A DNA stretch of 64,000 nucleotides from an uncultured bacterium (GTDB taxonomy: Bacteria > Verrucomicrobiota > Kiritimatiellia > RFP12 > UBA1067): positions 1 to 64,000 of the forward strand of contig CADCCW010000008.1 in the NCBI GenBank assembly GCA_902800055.1, in the 5' to 3' direction. A program made the translations under genes and the position numbers. Numbering within the stretch: the first letter of the stretch is position 1; each line of letters starts with the position of its first letter. Positions 573 to 10,147 of this stretch are shown here, piece by piece. Under the pieces are notes generated by a model. The model was given only the letters and a program-made list of their open reading frames with translations, made no database searches and was not told the DNA's origin.

Positions 573-2303
573 CTAGGCGTCGGGCCAGAGCTCGTGGGCC
601 ATCTCGCGGAGCTTGTACTTCTGTATCTTCTGCGACGCCGTCATCGGGAAGACGTCGAGAAAGTGTACGTACTTCGGGATCTTGAACCACGAGATCTTGT
701 CCTTGCAGAACGCCTGCACGTCGTGCTCGGAGAGCGTCACGCCGTCCGCCGGGATGACGAACGCGGCGGGCTGCTCGCCGTACTTCTTCGACGGGCAGCC
801 GACGACGGCGACGTCCTTGACGCCGGGCATCGTGCCGAGGAAGTCCTCGACCTCCTTCGGCGAGATGTTCTCTCCGCCGCGGATGATGAGGTCCTTCAGG
901 CGTCCGGTGATGTAGTAGTAGCCGTCCGCGTCCATCCTGCCGATGTCGCCGGAGTGTAGCCAGCCGCGCTCGTCGATGCACTTCGCCGTCTGCTCGGGCA
1001 TCTTGTAGTAGCCCTTCATCGTGTTGAAGCCGCGGCAGCAGATCTCACCGTCCTGCCCGATCGGCGCGAGCTCCTGCGTCTCGGGGTCGATGATCGCGAC
1101 CTCGACGCCCGGCAGCGCCTGCCCGATGGTCTGGCACTTGCGCTCGATCGACGGCTCGAAGTACCTGGTCATCGTCATCACGGGGCCGGACTCGGTGAGC
1201 CCGTACGGGTTCGTGATCTCCTTCATGAACATCCTGTCCTGCGCCTGCTGCATGCGGTGGACGGGGCACGCCGAGCCAGACATGATGCCGGTCCTAAGCG
1301 ACGTGAAGTTGAACTCCTTGAAGCGCGGGTGGTCGAGCATCGCGATGTACATCGTCGGGACGCCGTAGGTCGCCGTGCACTTCTCGCGCTCGATCGACTT
1401 CATGACGAGGAGCGGGTCGAACTTCTCGAGAAACACCATCGTCGAGCCGTGGTTCACGCAGCTCATCACGCCGAGCACGCAGCCGAAACAGTGGAAGAGC
1501 GGCACCGGGATGCAGACGCGGTCGCGCGAGGAGAGGTTCTGGCACGCGCCGATCCAGAAGCCGTCGTTCGCGATGTTGCGGTGGGTGAGCTGCACGCCCT
1601 TGGGGAAGCCGGTGGTGCCGCTCGTGTACTGCATGTTCACGACGTCGTTCACGTCGCACTCCGCCTGGCGCGCGAGATACGCCTCCTGCGTCGTCTCGCA
1701 CGCGAGCGACTTCACCTCGTTGAGCGAATACATGCCGCGGTGCTTCTTGGGCCCTAAGTAGAACATCCGCTTGAGGTGCGGGTATTTGGCGCTCTTCAAT
1801 GCGCCGCGCGGGCACTCCTTCAGCTCCGGAATGAGCGAGTTGATCACCTCGATGTAGTCGCAGTCGCGGTAGCCGTCGATGACGAACAGGTTCTCGGCGT
1901 CGGACTGCTTCAGCGCGAAGTCGATCTCCTGGCTCTTGTAGTTGATGTTGAGCGGCAGCAGGATCGCGCCGATCTTGGCCGTCGCGAACATCAGCACCAC
2001 CCAGTGCGGCACGTTCGTCGCCCAGAGCGCCACCTTTTCGCCGCGCTTGACGCCGAGCGCCATCAGGCCCTTGGCGACGTAGTCGACCTCCTCGGAGAAC
2101 TCGAACCAGGTGAGCCGGTAGTCGCGGTCGGCGTAGACGACCGCGTCGTTCTCGCCGCACCGCGCGACCGTCTGGTCGAGAAGCTGGCCGAGCGTGTACT
2201 CGCGCGTCACCGGCAGGTTGTGCCAGGGAACGCCGGTCGAGACGGACTGGGTGAACGGCGCCTTTCGCGGCGCAGTGCCGAATGGATCAGTTAACTTGAA
2301 CAT
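573..2303 (-). CDS. AMP-dependent acyl-CoA synthetase (FadD-like)
   Basis: A 576-residue member of the ANL adenylating superfamily: ATP + carboxylic acid + CoA give acyl-CoA + AMP + PPi. The P-loop-like motif YTSGTTGFPKG is at residues 226-236. Further on are YGLTESGP, the hinge region LHSGDIG, RLKDLIIRGGENISPKEVE, and near the C-terminus a lysine in SQKIQKYKLRE where the catalytic lysine of the family lies. Length is normal for medium/long-chain ligases; substrate cannot be read from sequence. It is the second gene of a unit led by an XRE-cupin regulator, 52 nt downstream, and both sit behind a leucine-rich leader peptide with a terminator. That makes a branched-chain acid a plausible substrate (inference). 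Confidence 0.93.
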   Translation of the reverse strand: MFKLTDPFGTAPRKAPFTQSVSTGVPWHNLPVTREYTLGQLLDQTVARCGENDAVVYADRDYRLTWFEFSEEVDYVAKGLMALGVKRGEKVALWATNVPHWVVLMFATAKIGAILLPLNINYKSQEIDFALKQSDAENLFVIDGYRDCDYIEVINSLIPELKECPRGALKSAKYPHLKRMFYLGPKKHRGMYSLNEVKSLACETTQEAYLARQAECDVNDVVNMQYTSGTTGFPKGVQLTHRNIANDGFWIGACQNLSSRDRVCIPVPLFHCFGCVLGVMSCVNHGSTMVFLEKFDPLLVMKSIEREKCTATYGVPTMYIAMLDHPRFKEFNFTSLRTGIMSGSACPVHRMQQAQDRMFMKEITNPYGLTESGPVMTMTRYFEPSIERKCQTIGQALPGVEVAIIDPETQELAPIGQDGEICCRGFNTMKGYYKMPEQTAKCIDERGWLHSGDIGRMDADGYYYITGRLKDLIIRGGENISPKEVEDFLGTMPGVKDVAVVGCPSKKYGEQPAAFVIPADGVTLSEHDVQAFCKDKISWFKIPKYVHFLDVFPMTASQKIQKYKLREMAHELWPDA

Positions 2304-2320
2304 AAGATCAGACCCCGAAA

Positions 2321-2362
2321 CTTTTCAACTTTTCAACCCTTAAACCTTTCAACCCTTAAACC
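2321..2362. repeat. Degenerate octamer tandem repeat
   Basis: Five consecutive 8-bp units alternate between TTTTCAAC/CTTTCAAC and CCTTAAAC. They begin at the stop codon of the XRE-cupin gene and fill most of the spacer before the acyl-CoA ligase. Similar octamer runs occur at 17590, 18479 and 30039. Confidence 0.7.
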
Positions 2363-2922
2363 GGCATGAACACGATGCCGTAGATCGACGCGGGCTTGCC
2401 GCCGAGCGCCCTCAGCCCGTGGTTGACGCACGAGTTGTAGTAGGCGGTGTCGCCGGCCTTGAGGACCGTCTTGTCGGGACCGTAGGTGAGCTCGACCTCG
2501 CCGGAGATGCAGATGATGAGCTCCTCGCCCTCGTGGTGCTGCACCGCGTCGACGCCATCCGCCGCGAACTCGATGCGGAACGGATCCATGTGGCGGTCGG
2601 GCTTGCCGAGCGCGAGCGAGTGGCTCGCGTAGCCGAGGACGTTCATCCCCTCGCCCGCGACCTTCTTCGCCTCGATGTCGGCGGCGCGCGTGATGATCGG
2701 GTCGGGCTTGAACTGGTCGTCCATGAACGTGCCGATCCTGAGGCCGAGCGCGCGGGAGAGCTTCACCAGCACGCCGAGCGCGGGCATGACCTCGCCCTTC
2801 TCGATCGCGTTGATGACCTTCTCCTCCACGCCGGACTTCTGGGCGAGGTCCCAGATGCTCCATCCGTGGCTCTCGCGGTATGTCCGAATGCGCTTGCCTG
2901 CCTTGTTTTCCTTGCTGCTCAT
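2356..2922 (-). CDS. XRE-family regulator with C-terminal cupin domain
   Basis: A 188-residue transcription factor: an N-terminal HTH_3 domain (about residues 9-65; helix-turn-helix around WSIWDLAQKSGVEEKVINAI) followed by a cupin_2 barrel (about 110-185; HHEGEELIICISGEVEL, then NHGLRALGG). The family usually senses a small ligand in the cupin and controls an adjacent gene, here the acyl-CoA ligase. I chose the ATG at 2922 because GAAAGG lies 5 nt upstream. A longer reading frame from 3033 would only translate the terminator hairpin of the leader region. Transcription probably starts near 3107, with read-through gated by the attenuator at 2966-3000. Confidence 0.9.
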   Translation of the reverse strand: MSSKENKAGKRIRTYRESHGWSIWDLAQKSGVEEKVINAIEKGEVMPALGVLVKLSRALGLRIGTFMDDQFKPDPIITRAADIEAKKVAGEGMNVLGYASHSLALGKPDRHMDPFRIEFAADGVDAVQHHEGEELIICISGEVELTYGPDKTVLKAGDTAYYNSCVNHGLRALGGKPASIYGIVFMPV

Positions 2923-2965
2923 GTTGCCTTTCGTTTTTTCCGGTCCAGATTGATCTCTCATGACG

Positions 2966-3000
2966 AAAAAGCGGACCGCCCTTCTTCGCGATCCGCTTTT
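2966..3000 (-). terminator. Attenuator-type intrinsic terminator
   Basis: On the minus strand AAAAGCGGA (3000-2992) pairs with TCCGCTTTT (2975-2967), with a U-rich 3' flank. The competing antiterminator is visible: GATCCGCT inside the leader ORF (3055-3048) is perfectly complementary to AGCGGATC (2997-2990), the 5' arm of the terminator. A third pairing, TTGGCCCTT (3095-3087) with AAGGGGCCAA (3025-3016, one bulged G), can sequester the leader start. This is the region 1-2-3-4 layout of amino-acid biosynthetic attenuators. Confidence 0.75.
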
Positions 3001-3029
3001 CCCGTGCTTCTTGAGTTGGCCCCTTTCGA

Positions 3030-3104
3030 TCAAACCCAGGCCGCCTCAGCGGATCTGCACCCGTTAAGGAGAAGGCTAAGTCGAATAAGGGCCAATTTGT
3101 TCAT
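3030..3104 (-). CDS. Leucine-rich leader peptide (attenuation leader)
   Basis: A 24-codon ORF beginning MNKLALIRLSLLLNG and ending in AAWV. Six leucines lie in the first 13 residues, including three in a row (CTT CTC CTT). The ORF starts 9 nt after a TATAAT box, so it is probably translated from a leaderless message, and it ends just before a complementary segment and a terminator. In leu/ilv leaders, ribosomes stalled on scarce Leu-tRNA free the antiterminator strand. Here the downstream genes are an XRE-cupin regulator and an acyl-CoA ligase rather than leuA. The peptide itself is not expected to have a function beyond being translated. The reading is based on arrangement; no homology search was possible. 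Confidence 0.72.
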   Translation of the reverse strand: MNKLALIRLSLLLNGCRSAEAAWV

Positions 3105-3113
3105 TGGGTGCGT

Positions 3114-3119
3114 ATTATA
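3114..3119 (-). promoter_or_regulatory. -10 box of the leader/XRE-cupin unit
   Basis: TATAAT on the minus strand, in the context GGTATAATAC. No good -35 hexamer is visible. The predicted start near 3107 leaves only a few bases before the leader-peptide ATG at 3104. Confidence 0.7.
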
Positions 3120-3182
3120 CCAAAAATCCTCCGCCGTGTGCGCGCGAATCTGAAAAAAAAATTCCCGCGGAATCGGCCGAAG

Positions 3183-5084
3183 CTACTGGCCTATGGAGAG
3201 GCGGAAGAAACGGGCGGAGGAGGCTTCGAGCTCGTTTGTCGAAACCGGATACCACGACGCGGACGAGAGAGTGTCGCAGCCGTAGAGCGTGTAGGTGCGT
3301 CCGGGGAGGCTCGGGCTCCATGAAATGCGCGGCACGCCTGCGGCAAAATCGATCGAGAGCACGATGTCGCGCGCCATTGGGTCGGCCGGGTCGAGGCCGA
3401 GAAGCCAGCTCGCCCAGAGCGAGCGCCCGTTCGCGCCGACGAGGCGGGCGAGCGGCTCGAAGCCGTACGTTCCGTTGAAATACTCCGCGGCGGAATGCGT
3501 CCCGTCGGCGGCGACAAGCTCGGCCAGCATGGTCGCGCCGTCGTCGGTCGCCGACGGAAAGTCGGAGGCGCGCGCGCCGCCGGAGATGCGGGTGTAGGCG
3601 TTGATGCAGAGAGCCCAGCCTTCGGCGTCGGCGGCGTACAGTCCGCAGTCGTAGGCGTCGTACCATCTGTTGGTTGCGTCGTTCTTCGACCAGCCCACGT
3701 AGCCGTTGCCGGGACGATAGGCGAATCCGCCGTAGACCGGATCTTCCGGAACCGGCGTCACGGTGGCGACGAGAATCGAGGCTGCGCTACCGGCCTGCCT
3801 GAACACGACGGCATAGGACGTGCCGGGCGCGAGCGGGATTTCGCGTTCAAGGGGGACGGTGGTGTAGCCGCCGCGCGCGAGCGTGCCGGACTGGCTCAGC
3901 GCGCACGCACCGCCTTCGAGCGGACTCTCCGACGGATACACGGTTCCGTATGTCCTTGTGCCGTAGTCGCAGGGCACTACCTCCTCCCACCGCGATGTTG
4001 CGTGGCGCACGACGTTGGTGTAGATGGAGATTTCATATTCATAGGGGTAGACCGCAGTCCATACGCCCACGGCGGCAAGGCTCTCACCGGTCGCGGCGGT
4101 GAAGACCACGGCCTGGAGGTCGCTGTCGAACTGCGGGAATGCTCTGCTGTATGAAACGGACGTGTCATACTGCGGACCCGCGATGGCGTAGCCGTGCACG
4201 GCGTCGTATGCCGGCCCGTCGTCGCCGGCCGGCAGATAGACGCGGCCGCCGCCTGTGCAGAAGATGGTGTCGCAGTAGGAAACGTAGCAGTAGCCATGGT
4301 CGCCGATGGCTGTACCCCAGCTGTTCTTTATGATCCATGCGCCGTCGGTCGGCGGCGGACTCCTGAACAGCGCCCTGGGAAGACGGTCATCCCAGCCGAC
4401 GACGGTAACGGCATGGTTCGGGGATGAATCGTACATATAGCAGTGGTATGTGTTGTTGGAGCTGGTATAGGCGCCGCTCCAGTACATGGAGACCGCCACC
4501 GCCCCGTATTCGGCTATGGCGCGCTTCAGCGCATCTCGGCTCTCCTCGGTCCCGTCGAGGGCGGGAGTGAAGACGATGTTCTGCACATGCAGTTCGCTCG
4601 GCAGCGCCGGGCTGTTGGTGGCATCCCACGCCGCAAACGTGCCGACGTACGGATCTTTCGCCTCGTCCACCGGGCCGCTCCAGCGCAGAAGGTAGCCGGC
4701 CGGGCTGTCAGAATAGCCGCCGTGGCCGTTGTAGCCGATCATCGCGCAGAGCTTGGCGAGGTTCTTTTCGGAAAAGTCGCGCTCTCCCCTGCCAGACTTG
4801 AGAAGCTGAGTCTCAATCGTCGCGAGCGCCGCGAACGCCCAGCAGTTCCCAAGATCGAACTGGTTCTTGACGGACGTCATCCAGCCGTTGCTGGCGGAAT
4901 TCCAGTACGCCGGCAGCGGCTCCGGGGCGGAGCGAAGACGCGGCGCGGCGCGCAAGGACGTGAGCTCGCGCACGCGGATCATCTTTCCCGGGGCACTGGG
5001 CAGCAGGCCGGGCGTGAACGGCGGCGGGTCGTCGGCGAATGCCGCAAGCGCGGCAGAGGCAAGAATGACGAGACACTTCCGCAT
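3183..5084 (-). CDS. Secreted papain-family (C1) cysteine protease
   Basis: A 633-residue exported protein. Signal peptide at residues 1-17 (MRKCLVILASAALAAFA). The C1 peptidase catalytic set is complete: Q75 and C81 in NQFDLGNCWAFAAL, H224 in SPNHAVTVVGWDD, N254 in WIIKNSWG. There is no clear inhibitory propeptide longer than about 45 residues before the mature fold. Residues about 300-480 resemble the lectin-like beta domain found after some bacterial C1 domains, and the last 50 residues form another beta-rich segment. It is the last gene of the hydF operon, 19 nt after the Crp-like regulator, and probably acts in the periplasm or outside the cell on proteins. Substrate unknown. Confidence 0.9.
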   Translation of the reverse strand: MRKCLVILASAALAAFADDPPPFTPGLLPSAPGKMIRVRELTSLRAAPRLRSAPEPLPAYWNSASNGWMTSVKNQFDLGNCWAFAALATIETQLLKSGRGERDFSEKNLAKLCAMIGYNGHGGYSDSPAGYLLRWSGPVDEAKDPYVGTFAAWDATNSPALPSELHVQNIVFTPALDGTEESRDALKRAIAEYGAVAVSMYWSGAYTSSNNTYHCYMYDSSPNHAVTVVGWDDRLPRALFRSPPPTDGAWIIKNSWGTAIGDHGYCYVSYCDTIFCTGGGRVYLPAGDDGPAYDAVHGYAIAGPQYDTSVSYSRAFPQFDSDLQAVVFTAATGESLAAVGVWTAVYPYEYEISIYTNVVRHATSRWEEVVPCDYGTRTYGTVYPSESPLEGGACALSQSGTLARGGYTTVPLEREIPLAPGTSYAVVFRQAGSAASILVATVTPVPEDPVYGGFAYRPGNGYVGWSKNDATNRWYDAYDCGLYAADAEGWALCINAYTRISGGARASDFPSATDDGATMLAELVAADGTHSAAEYFNGTYGFEPLARLVGANGRSLWASWLLGLDPADPMARDIVLSIDFAAGVPRISWSPSLPGRTYTLYGCDTLSSASWYPVSTNELEASSARFFRLSIGQ

Positions 5085-7426: not shown

Positions 7427-8562
7427 AGCTCCACCGTCCCGTCCATTTTCACTTCGCCCAGCCCGTTCGCCGCGGCGAGCAGCATGCCGTAGTTGACCAC
7501 CGGCACCCCGGCCTCGCGGCAGAGCGAGATCCGGCGCATCACCTCGCGTCGCGTGAGCATGCAGCCGCCGCACTGCACCGCGAGCGCGAAGCCGCCACCG
7601 TCCGCACCGAGGTCGAAGGTGCCGCCGCTTGCGAAGGAGAACTCCGGCCGCGCGCCAGAAAGCCGCTCGATTGCCTTCGGTATCTTCACCGCGCCGATGT
7701 CGTCGCACTGGCGGTGGTGGGTGCAGCCCTCTGCCACCAGCACCCGGTCGCCGGCGCGGAGCCGGCGCGCCGCGGCGATTCCGCCGGCGTAGGCGGCGAG
7801 GTCGCCCTTCTGCCGCGCATAGAGGATCGAAAACGAAGTGAGCCGCGTCGACGCGCCGCCGTGGGCGCGCACCGCGGCGGCGACCGCGGCGAAAGCCTGC
7901 GAGTCGGTGACGACAAGAGACTGGCCGCTGGCCGCGGCAAGTTCGCCGGCGAGCTCCTGCGGCTGGCAGACGGAGCAGGCGAGATGGCGGTCGAGGCATT
8001 CGCGGATCAGCTGCACCTGCGGCAGGATGAGCCTGCCCTTCGGCGCGGAGGAGTCGATCGGGCAGACGAGCACCAGCCGCTCGCCGTCGCGGACGATTCC
8101 GTCGAGGAGTCCGCGCTCGCGCTCCACGATCTTCGCCGCGGCGACCTTGCGCATCAATTCGTCGACGCCGTCGCCGCGGCGGTGGACGATCGCCGCGGTG
8201 CCGTTGCGGCGACACTCCGCGAGGAACTTTTCCTTCAGCGCGGCAGAGCGTTCCGGCTCCGTCCCCTCCACCCATACCGCGATGTCGGCGACCGCCAGCA
8301 CCTCAATCGTGCGCTTGACCCGCATCGCCCCGAGCTCGCCCTCGTCGTCGAGTCCGGCGGTGTCGGTGACGAGGCAGGGGCCAAGCGGGAAAATCTCCAT
8401 CGCCTTCGAGACCGGGTCGGTGGTGGTGCCGGGGACGTCGCTCACGATCGCGACGTCCTGGCCGGTGAAGGCGTTCACGAGCGTGGACTTGCCCGCGTTC
8501 CTCGGACCGAAGAACGCGATGCGCAGCCTGTTCGCCGAAGGCGTCTCGTGCATTTCCGCCAT
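7423..8562 (-). CDS. hydF: [FeFe]-hydrogenase H-cluster maturation GTPase HydF
   Basis: A 379-residue protein with an N-terminal Era-like GTPase (P-loop GPRNAGKST at 19-27; switch GTTTDP; DTAG near 67-70), a dimerisation domain, and a C-terminal cluster-binding domain with the HydF signature C280-x-H282 and C331-x-x-C334 (GCTHHRQC and QCGGC). HydF is the scaffold that carries the diiron subcluster made by HydE/HydG and delivers it to HydA. It therefore serves the hydrogenases encoded at 23877, 26764 and 46768. hydE and hydG are not in the window. It is first in a leftward operon and its TATAAT box is 9 nt before the start codon, so the mRNA is probably leaderless. Confidence 0.96.
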   Translation of the reverse strand: MAEMHETPSANRLRIAFFGPRNAGKSTLVNAFTGQDVAIVSDVPGTTTDPVSKAMEIFPLGPCLVTDTAGLDDEGELGAMRVKRTIEVLAVADIAVWVEGTEPERSAALKEKFLAECRRNGTAAIVHRRGDGVDELMRKVAAAKIVERERGLLDGIVRDGERLVLVCPIDSSAPKGRLILPQVQLIRECLDRHLACSVCQPQELAGELAAASGQSLVVTDSQAFAAVAAAVRAHGGASTRLTSFSILYARQKGDLAAYAGGIAAARRLRAGDRVLVAEGCTHHRQCDDIGAVKIPKAIERLSGARPEFSFASGGTFDLGADGGGFALAVQCGGCMLTRREVMRRISLCREAGVPVVNYGMLLAAANGLGEVKMDGTVEL

Positions 8563-8571
8563 ATGTTTTGT

Positions 8572-8577
8572 ATTATA
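8572..8577 (-). promoter_or_regulatory. -10 box of the hydF operon
   Basis: TATAAT on the minus strand, in the context TGATATAATAC. Nine bases separate it from the hydF ATG, leaving no room for a ribosome binding site. The divergent pdxK box is 72 bp away. Confidence 0.7.
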
Positions 8578-8648
8578 TCAAAACCCGCACAGGCAGGGCA
8601 ATAGCGCCTCGGCGGCGCGGCGGGGCTGACGCGGACGGAGAAATTTGG

Positions 8649-8654
8649 TATAAT
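8649..8654 (+). promoter_or_regulatory. -10 box of the pdxK-like operon
   Basis: TATAAT in the context TTTGGTATAATCC, nine bases before the ATG at 8664. This predicts a leaderless transcript. Confidence 0.7.
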
Positions 8655-8663
8655 CCGCGCCCA

Positions 8664-9539
8664 ATGGGAAGCAAGAGGACAGCTCCAACTGCCGCGGATG
8701 CGGCGAATGTCGACCACAACCGCCAGCGCAAGGCGGCTGTCATCAACGACTTCACCAGCTTCGGGCGCTGCTCGCTCGCGGTGACGATCCCCATCCTCTC
8801 CGCAATGAAGGTGCAGTGCTGCCCCGTGCCCACCGCCTTCTTCACCAACCACACCGGCTTCGAGTCGTTCGCCTGGACCGACAACACCGACCACCTCGAC
8901 GACTACATCCGCGAGTGGAAGCGCCTCGGCCTCCGGTTCGACGCCATCCAGACCGGATTCCTCGGCTCGCGCGAGCAGGTGGACTTCGTCAAACGCTTCA
9001 TCGCCGCCTTCCGCGACGAGCGGACCGTCGTCTGCGTCGATCCGGTGATGGGCGACTACGGCCGCCTCTACGCCACCTACGACCGCGCGCTCGCCGAGTC
9101 CATGCGCGGCTTCCTCGACGTCGCCGACGTCCTCACGCCCAACCTGACCGAGGCGTGCATCCTCGCGGACGAGCCCTACCGCACCGACATAACCGACGCC
9201 GAGCTGGAGTCGATCTGCCGCCGCCTCGCCGAGCGCGGAGCCGGCCGCGTCGTCGTCTCCGGCATTCCCCGCGGCGAAACGCTGGTGAACTTCGTCTACG
9301 TCCAGGGCCGCGAACCGACCCTCTGCGCCGAGCGGAAGATCGGCGGCGACCGCAGCGGCACCGGGGACGTCTTCGCGTCGGTGATCCTGGCGGACGCGGT
9401 GAACGGCGTCGACTTCGCCGAGTCCGTCCGCCGCGCCAGCGCCTTCACCGCGAGCGCGGTGCGCCGCTCGGTGGAGCTGGGGCTGCCGGAGAAGGACGGC
9501 CTCGCGATCGAGGAAGTCATTGGGGAGCTCGTGAAATGA
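8664..9539 (+). CDS. Pyridoxal/pyridoxamine kinase-like PfkB-family kinase
   Basis: A 291-residue ribokinase-superfamily protein. VINDFTSFGRCSLA, the alternating CCPVPTAFFTNHTG segment, CVDPVMGDYGRLY and the anion-hole motif GDRSGTGDVFASV (about 226-238) match bacterial PdxK/PdxY-type kinases, which phosphorylate pyridoxal, pyridoxamine or pyridoxine with ATP in the cytosol. I start it at the ATG at 8664, because a longer frame from 8568 would run through the promoter. The stop overlaps the next gene's start in ATGA. Its location opposite the yggS operon gives two vitamin-B6 genes side by side. Confidence 0.88.
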   Translation: MGSKRTAPTAADAANVDHNRQRKAAVINDFTSFGRCSLAVTIPILSAMKVQCCPVPTAFFTNHTGFESFAWTDNTDHLDDYIREWKRLGLRFDAIQTGFLGSREQVDFVKRFIAAFRDERTVVCVDPVMGDYGRLYATYDRALAESMRGFLDVADVLTPNLTEACILADEPYRTDITDAELESICRRLAERGAGRVVVSGIPRGETLVNFVYVQGREPTLCAERKIGGDRSGTGDVFASVILADAVNGVDFAESVRRASAFTASAVRRSVELGLPEKDGLAIEEVIGELVK

Positions 9540-10147
9540 CCATCACCTACCAGGTCAAGTCGTCGGTCTACGTCAACCTCACCAACCGCTGTCCCTGCGC
9601 CTGCACCTTCTGCCTCCGGAACAACGCGAGCGGCGTCTACGGCTCCGGCTCGCTCTGGCTCGAGCGCGAGCCGACGCTCGACGAGGTGACCGCAAGCCTC
9701 GACGCACAGGACTGGACGCGCTTCCGCGAAGTCGTCTTCTGCGGCTACGGCGAGCCCACCGAGAGGCTCGACGTGCTGCTCGCCGCCGCCGCGCACATGA
9801 AGGCACGCGACCCCTCGCTGCGCGTGAGGGTGAACACGAACGGGCTTTCCGACCTCGTGAACGGGCGCCCCACCGCCGCGCTCTTCGCGGGCAAGGTCGA
9901 CTGCCTTTCCATCAGCCTCAACACCGACGACCCGGCCGAGTACCTCGCGGTCTGCCGCCCTTCCTTTGGCGACGCCGCCTACCCCGCCATGCTCGCCTTC
10001 GCTCACGACGCGGCGAAATTCGTCCCGGAAGTGGTGATGACCGTCGTCGGTGAGCCCGTCACCGACGCGGCCAAGCAGGCGCGCTGTCGCGCCATCGCCG
10101 AAGGCCTCGGCGCCAGCCTCCGCGTCCGCCCCTACGAAATGGCATAA
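9536..10147 (+). CDS. TatD-linked-type radical SAM protein
   Basis: A 203-residue small radical SAM enzyme. The cluster motif C19-x3-C23-x2-C26 lies in NRCPCACTFC; FCGYGEPTERL is the GGE-like SAM-contact strand, followed by RVNTNG and CLSISLNTDD. This pattern and the short length match the family usually found next to or fused to TatD nucleases. No tatD gene is adjacent here: the next gene is 5-formyl-THF cyclo-ligase, 8 nt on. The reaction is unknown for the family. The start overlaps the pdxK stop in ATGA. Confidence 0.85.
   Translation: MTITYQVKSSVYVNLTNRCPCACTFCLRNNASGVYGSGSLWLEREPTLDEVTASLDAQDWTRFREVVFCGYGEPTERLDVLLAAAAHMKARDPSLRVRVNTNGLSDLVNGRPTAALFAGKVDCLSISLNTDDPAEYLAVCRPSFGDAAYPAMLAFAHDAAKFVPEVVMTVVGEPVTDAAKQARCRAIAEGLGASLRVRPYEMA

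Follow-up and report, generated by a model that had tools for sequence, protein, structure and literature searches.

A predicted leucine-sensing attenuator ahead of an acyl-CoA ligase operon in an uncultured Kiritimatiellia bacterium

The 64,000-nucleotide stretch of DNA analyzed here (the window; positions 1 to 64,000 of contig CADCCW010000008.1) carries, ahead of genes for an XRE-cupin regulator and an AMP-forming acyl-CoA ligase, what appears to be a ribosome-mediated attenuator that senses charged tRNA-Leu and controls a ligase feeding leucine synthesis from isovalerate. We assign this complete reading a probability of about 0.8; the attenuator itself, judged from comparative sequence evidence, is nearly certain. 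Because the leader precedes an acyl-CoA ligase in bacteria without the normal leucine pathway, the analysis suggests that bacteria with both the Leu leader and the ligase make leucine from rumen isovalerate. The window belongs to a metagenome-assembled genome (2.3 Mb, 90% complete) whose near relatives are rumen and gut Kiritimatiellae.

On the minus strand an extended -10 element is followed by the leader open reading frame (ORF), the terminator, the XRE-cupin gene and the ligase gene. The features are as follows.

3114..3122, minus strand: promoter -10 region, extended type, TGGTATAAT, read from the sequence, with a putative start site
3030..3104, minus strand: leader ORF of 24 codons and a stop, MNKLALIRLSLLLNGCRSAEAAWV, putative Leu sensor; the copies read share its frame, ATG and stop
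3066..3080, minus strand: regulatory codons L9, L11, L12 and L13 (CTT AGC CTT CTC CTT), swapped as units in paralogous leaders
3095-3093 and 3089-3087, minus strand: further Leu codons of the leader
3044..3069, minus strand: hairpin 1:2, CUUAACGGGU/AUCCGCUGAG, loop GCAG, containing codon L13; from RNAalifold and pair counts
3048..3055, minus strand: antiterminator strand 2, GAUCCGCU, exact complement of 2997-2990
2990..2997, minus strand: antiterminator strand 3, AGCGGAUC, pairing with 3055-3048 and doubling as the 5' arm of the terminator
2965..3002, minus strand: intrinsic terminator 3:4 with U-tract, arms GGAAAAGCGGATCGC and GCGGTCCGCTTTTTC; hairpin of -24.7 kcal/mol, with covariation
2356..2922, minus strand: XRE-cupin regulator (Pfam HTH_3 and Cupin_2), first controlled gene
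573..2303, minus strand: AMP-forming acyl-CoA ligase (Pfam AMP-binding, 6e-94), second controlled gene, proposed isovalerate-CoA ligase

The first-pass annotation had described much of this layout. Its 24-codon leader ORF with six leucines in the first 13 residues is present as described (3104-3030), the coordinates that it gave for an 8-bp antiterminator (3055-3048 with 2997-2990) are exact, its terminator hairpin with U-tract was recovered (at 3002-2965 in our analysis) and is conserved with covariation, and Pfam confirmed that the controlled genes encode a cupin-type regulator and an AMP-forming acyl-CoA ligase. Directly upstream of the leader lies a gene for a papain-family (C1) peptidase with a Lectin_like domain (3183-5084, minus strand).

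The leader ORF begins 9 nt 3' of the -10 element. Because 8 to 10 nt separate the end of the -10 element from the ATG in most copies read, the leader is probably leaderless, with translation starting where the transcript itself begins. A promoter/terminator scan missed both the promoter and the terminator of the window's leader; the promoter was missed because it has no -35 element that the scan could find. Trp-type copies additionally carry a -35 TTGAC. The promoter block around TTTTTGGTATAATACGCAC (window 3127-3106) is repeated at G000:C32, C12 and C16 in the same genome and in relatives, and is apparently a lineage-specific promoter form.

The leader peptide has leucine at positions 4, 6, 9, 11, 12 and 13, and six leucines within 13 residues are more than expected by chance (p = 5e-4). 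CTT accounts for four of these six codons versus 12.7% of the Leu codons in the window's genes (p = 0.003). Rare codons are favored in the sensors generally (CTT, 12.7%; ATT, 9.5%), in agreement with a theory in which attenuators employ the codons that respond most to supply when read (PMC1183508); the choice of CTT and ATT is also restricted by pairing in hairpin 1:2. In paralogous leaders the sensor codons are exchanged whole, with ATT/ATC taking their place in copies of the Ile type and TGG in those of the Trp type, and relatives keep a short ORF in which codons for a single amino acid cluster. The stop codon lies 15 nt past the antiterminator strand in the window's copy and most others, with variable last residues, as expected if a terminating ribosome must cover the antiterminator strand.

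Folding of the 5' region, a check that the first-pass annotation had proposed, gave an energy of -64.6 kcal/mol, stronger than that of shuffled sequences (-46.1 ± 4.25; z = -4.35; 0 of 200 as good). The annotation had also listed a third pairing, of the leader start with the region after its stop (TTGGCCC near 3096 with GGGGCCAA near 3020). This pairing occurs in the window's minimum-energy fold and is lost in relatives, and the long stem of that fold was rejected as a functional partner because it is not conserved. The competing role belongs instead to the conserved hairpin 1:2 (within 3069-3044), which hides antiterminator strand 2 in the window's leader. Its consensus is CUUA.CGGGU[GCRG]AUCCG.UGAG, and its 5' strand takes in the last regulatory codon, with Leu CUU pairing with GAG and Ile AUU/AUC with GGU. 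A-U, G-C and C-G pairs all occur at alignment column pair 28/45 (RNAalifold and pair counts), as they do, together with wobble pairs, at terminator column pair 105/134. Counted jointly, hairpin 1:2 and the terminator have 97.6% standard pairs and 20 double-changed cells, and their covariation was 0.255 compared to 0.121 when shuffled (0 of 500).

The antiterminator, in which GATCCGCT (3055-3048) exactly complements AGCGGATC (2997-2990), is paired in 97.5% of alignment cells versus 21 to 49% when the strands are slid. Its shuffle control is weak taken alone because six of the eight pairs never vary in the alignment. An arm-swap mismatch test between leaders discriminated poorly for GC-rich arms, being confounded by GC content, and we therefore relied on pair counts and on copies of wholly different sequence. 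The antiterminator is retained in unrelated sequence (permutation, 0 of 20,000); the Ile-type copy in the same genome, for example, has it as GGTGGTCT with AGACCACC, and the main Trp class as GGATTCGG with CCGAATCC. Comparison of the copies thus supports a predicted architecture in which antiterminator and terminator are mutually exclusive and a competing hairpin lies over the regulatory codons.

The most decisive support for the element comes from its conservation. A DNA search found the element, 92% identical, before the XRE-cupin gene in the closest relatives, 70 to 74% identical in others, and also at paralogous sites. Searches with two covariance models, one built from 15 copies and the second from 19, raised the tally to 48 leaders, spread over 33 genomes that all belong to one family. 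The leaders were classified from their peptides as Leu (16), Ile (12), Trp (19) and Tyr/Phe (1). In 14 genomes of the genus a Leu leader stands before the XRE-cupin gene, with the ligase gene next in the loci examined, and the Leu codons, the antiterminator and terminator pairings and the stop position are all kept; loss of the codons or pairings in relatives had been named beforehand as grounds for discarding the attenuator. Matches designated R1 in G104, G105 and G078 (L116, L117 and L119) and R2 in G133 (L246) were rejected because they are hairpins resembling terminators, with neither a sensor ORF nor the layout of a leader. A sample of 388 genomes of the phylum added one copy from beyond the family (L250); it is of the Trp type (MEKNTFKHFFDWRWCWR) and precedes a TrpB-like gene. 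Attenuation with this layout may extend further than the covariance model can detect.

The amino acid sensed corresponds to the product of the operon wherever the target is classical. Leu leaders stand immediately before leuA in two genomes of other genera (MNKKLQLRLNLRLHGCRSAGLGCV and MSKQFNLRLSLELRGCRSAERACV), Trp leaders before trpE, trpC or TrpB-like genes, and the Tyr/Phe leader before a DAHP synthase gene; five of the genes after Trp and Tyr/Phe leaders were confirmed with profiles. For the window's ligase, the corresponding match is a predicted one. Conservation, the swapping of codons along with the operon and the leader before leuA all support the initial proposal that this layout, as in leu/ilv operons, places genes under the control of Leu-tRNA charging. 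The window's genome has a second leader, the Ile-type MKNRFAIRIIITRPGGLTPAACSVA (G000:C1:88045-88188, L233), whose antiterminator sequence is wholly different from that of the Leu leader and which precedes a 751-residue XRE-cupin-ligase fusion. In each of the six copies translated, the Ile leader preceded a protein of ∼750 residues that combines XRE, cupin and AMP-ligase parts. One exception, L107 (G012:C154), is an Ile-type leader followed by genes for a porin-like protein and a type-III-like glutamine synthetase.

Genes for leucine supply were searched for in the draft genomes with curated profiles for leuA, leuB, ilvC and VorB. leuA was found in 0 of 14 Leu-leader genomes versus 25 of 47 in the rest of the genus (Fisher p = 3e-4), leuB in 0 of 14 versus 23 of 47 (p = 5e-4) and ilvC in 1 of 14, namely G037, versus 37 of 47 (p = 2e-6); these P values are uncorrected for descent, and the 14 genomes are closely related, so that the tests are not independent of it. 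Because their hosts are without leuA, leuB and, in 13 of 14 cases, ilvC, the ligase is likely part of an alternative leucine route. None of the three genes was found by these profiles in the window's genome, which has a VorB (534 bits; cut-off, 399) with adjoining beta and gamma subunits in a VOR-like set. The classical leucine pathway is thus absent and a VOR-type oxidoreductase present, with ilvBH remaining; these acetolactate synthase genes (L247, about 8100-9850) are retained without ilvC, leuA or leuB. VorB was found in 12 of the 14 Leu-leader genomes, and the profile search did not find it in the incomplete assemblies G041 and G043. The window's genome also encodes an IOR-alpha relative that scores below its cut-off, and in one relative (L149) iorA lies directly upstream of the XRE-cupin gene. 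The formation of leucine by carboxylation of isovalerate has been an established ability of rumen microbes since the 1960s (Allison 1962, 1966, as cited by PMC7356843). The controlled genes had been singled out as unusual because they are not leucine biosynthetic enzymes. They are indeed not the classical enzymes, and this choice of target can be accounted for if, as is probable, the ligase belongs to an alternative leucine route.

Against NF009233, a family of fatty acid CoA ligases, the window's ligase gave 1e-207 without reaching the cut-off, and its best solved matches were feruloyl-, malonyl-, coumarate- and long-chain-type ligases, with no characterized close homologue among the solved-structure matches. 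Its own sequence is silent on the substrate, and the argument for isovalerate comes from context. In the Ile-type fusion, the ligase domain matched 3ETC (E = 1.7e-180) and also MbcS, the latter with a score under the equivalog cut-off. The 3ETC structure is that of MacsMa, an enzyme with a preference for 2-methylbutyrate (PMC10455477), and MbcS selects 2-methylbutyrate and isobutyrate and serves fatty-acid synthesis (PMC10026030). Isoleucine is formed from 2-methylbutyrate by the same carboxylation chemistry. By analogy with an Ile-type ligase nearest a 2-methylbutyrate enzyme, the Leu-type ligase should use isovalerate; the two ligases fall in different subfamilies. In many relatives (L137, L139, L143 and others) the XRE-cupin gene precedes accD, not a ligase gene, and no leader is present there. 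The leader was also absent from the close XRE-cupin/ligase operons of other species that were examined.

We infer the following course of ribosome stalling and read-through. Transcription would begin at or a few bases from the leader ATG, with the ribosome trailing RNA polymerase. When leucine is ample, the ribosome would reach the stop codon, hairpin 1:2 would form first and terminator 3:4 after it, and transcription would end before the genes. When leucine is scarce, the ribosome would pause on the CUU/CUC cluster. A paused ribosome covers ∼12 nt past the first base of the A-site codon. With L13 in the A site, coverage to approximately position 3056 would open hairpin 1:2 and just free strand 2, which could then pair with strand 3 so that the XRE-cupin and ligase genes are transcribed. 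The ligase would stand in for the lost leuA route by converting isovalerate, of which the rumen has plenty, to isovaleryl-CoA; the VOR-type 2-oxoacid:ferredoxin oxidoreductase would carboxylate this to 2-oxoisocaproate for transamination to leucine. Counting against this reading are the retained ilvBH, the ilvC of G037, the two assemblies in which VorB was not found and the XRE-cupin/ligase operons of other species that have no such leader.

It is also conceivable that the attenuator senses leucine while the ligase serves elsewhere, for example by activating acids that go into branched-chain lipids, and that the XRE-cupin protein is a repressor responding to acyl-CoA or acid. The nearest solved relatives of the window's ligase are not isovalerate enzymes, accD is a fatty-acid synthesis gene, and MbcS itself works in the same pathway, all of which would suit such a role. 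However, the loss of leuA, leuB and ilvC in Leu-leader genomes, the parallel Ile sensor before a ligase akin to 2-methylbutyrate enzymes and the control by each sensor with a classical target of the synthesis of its own amino acid argue against it, and we consider it unlikely.

A quite improbable alternative is that the terminated leader acts mainly in trans as a small RNA or peptide, like rnTrpL/peTrpL of Sinorhizobium meliloti. The leader is probably leaderless, as is S. meliloti trpL, whose small ORF starts at the 5' end of the transcript (PMC7298713), and Leu and Ile copies alike keep the GC(R/G)SA part of the peptide. However, the RNA helices over those codons account for its retention, the last residues vary freely, and action in trans is compatible with attenuation. 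The strong fold of the 5' region and the highly conserved RNA core of the Leu copies might instead recall a metabolite riboswitch or T-box RNA with an accidental ORF. This can hardly be credited when the copies keep the ATG, the frame and the distance to the stop and exchange entire sensor codons. Beyond the hairpins, the Leu, Ile and Trp classes have no ligand-pocket-like element in common, and an Rfam cmscan of 2000-4000 (E up to 10) matched no leader family and no T-box, giving only chance matches outside the element.

The preferred reading, control by charged tRNA-Leu of a ligase for leucine synthesis, has a broader form towards which we lean. In it, one RNA scaffold has been copied between operons in Kiritimatiellae with its sensor codons exchanged and controls carboxylic-acid salvage, the codons naming the amino acid that each XRE-cupin-linked ligase serves (isovalerate for Leu, 2-methylbutyrate for Ile). 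If true, the classical route for branched-chain acids in the rumen would gain both its regulation and the activation genes that it has lacked. The RNA sensor points to a candidate ligase for the isovalerate-to-leucine step in uncultured rumen bacteria and has an isoleucine counterpart in the same genome, and sensor codons might be usable for predicting ligase substrates from sequence. Leader-peptide attenuation would also be extended to another phylum, with a scaffold of exchangeable sensor codons. The literature searched, outside which most subscription journals fall, contained no earlier account of the leader family or of attenuation in its phylum.

Among known systems, the leuL/leuABCD attenuator of enterobacteria (Rfam Leu_leader) likewise has a leader ORF with Leu codons, exclusive hairpins and a terminator before a leucine-supply operon. 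In contrast, the window's leader has no Rfam match, is probably leaderless, comes from another phylum, has a single hairpin 1:2 that includes the last Leu codon, and controls an XRE-cupin gene and an acyl-CoA ligase gene. The trpL/rnTrpL system of S. meliloti also has a small leader ORF, which there starts at the 5' end of the RNA, as the window's leader ORF probably does, and Trp members of the present family precede trpE; the sequences differ, and the Sinorhizobium small RNA and peptide act in trans. The leader-peptide attenuators of Proteobacteria, Actinobacteria and Firmicutes (PMC2965389, PMC1262725, PMC5794164) belong to the same mechanism class, whereas in Kiritimatiellae sensors for Leu, Ile, Trp and Tyr/Phe all sit on one recognizable RNA scaffold. 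Among characterized enzymes, MacsMa (PDB 3ETC) and MbcS come nearest to the ligase domain encoded after the Ile-type leader of the window's genome; unlike them, this domain is joined to an XRE-cupin part.
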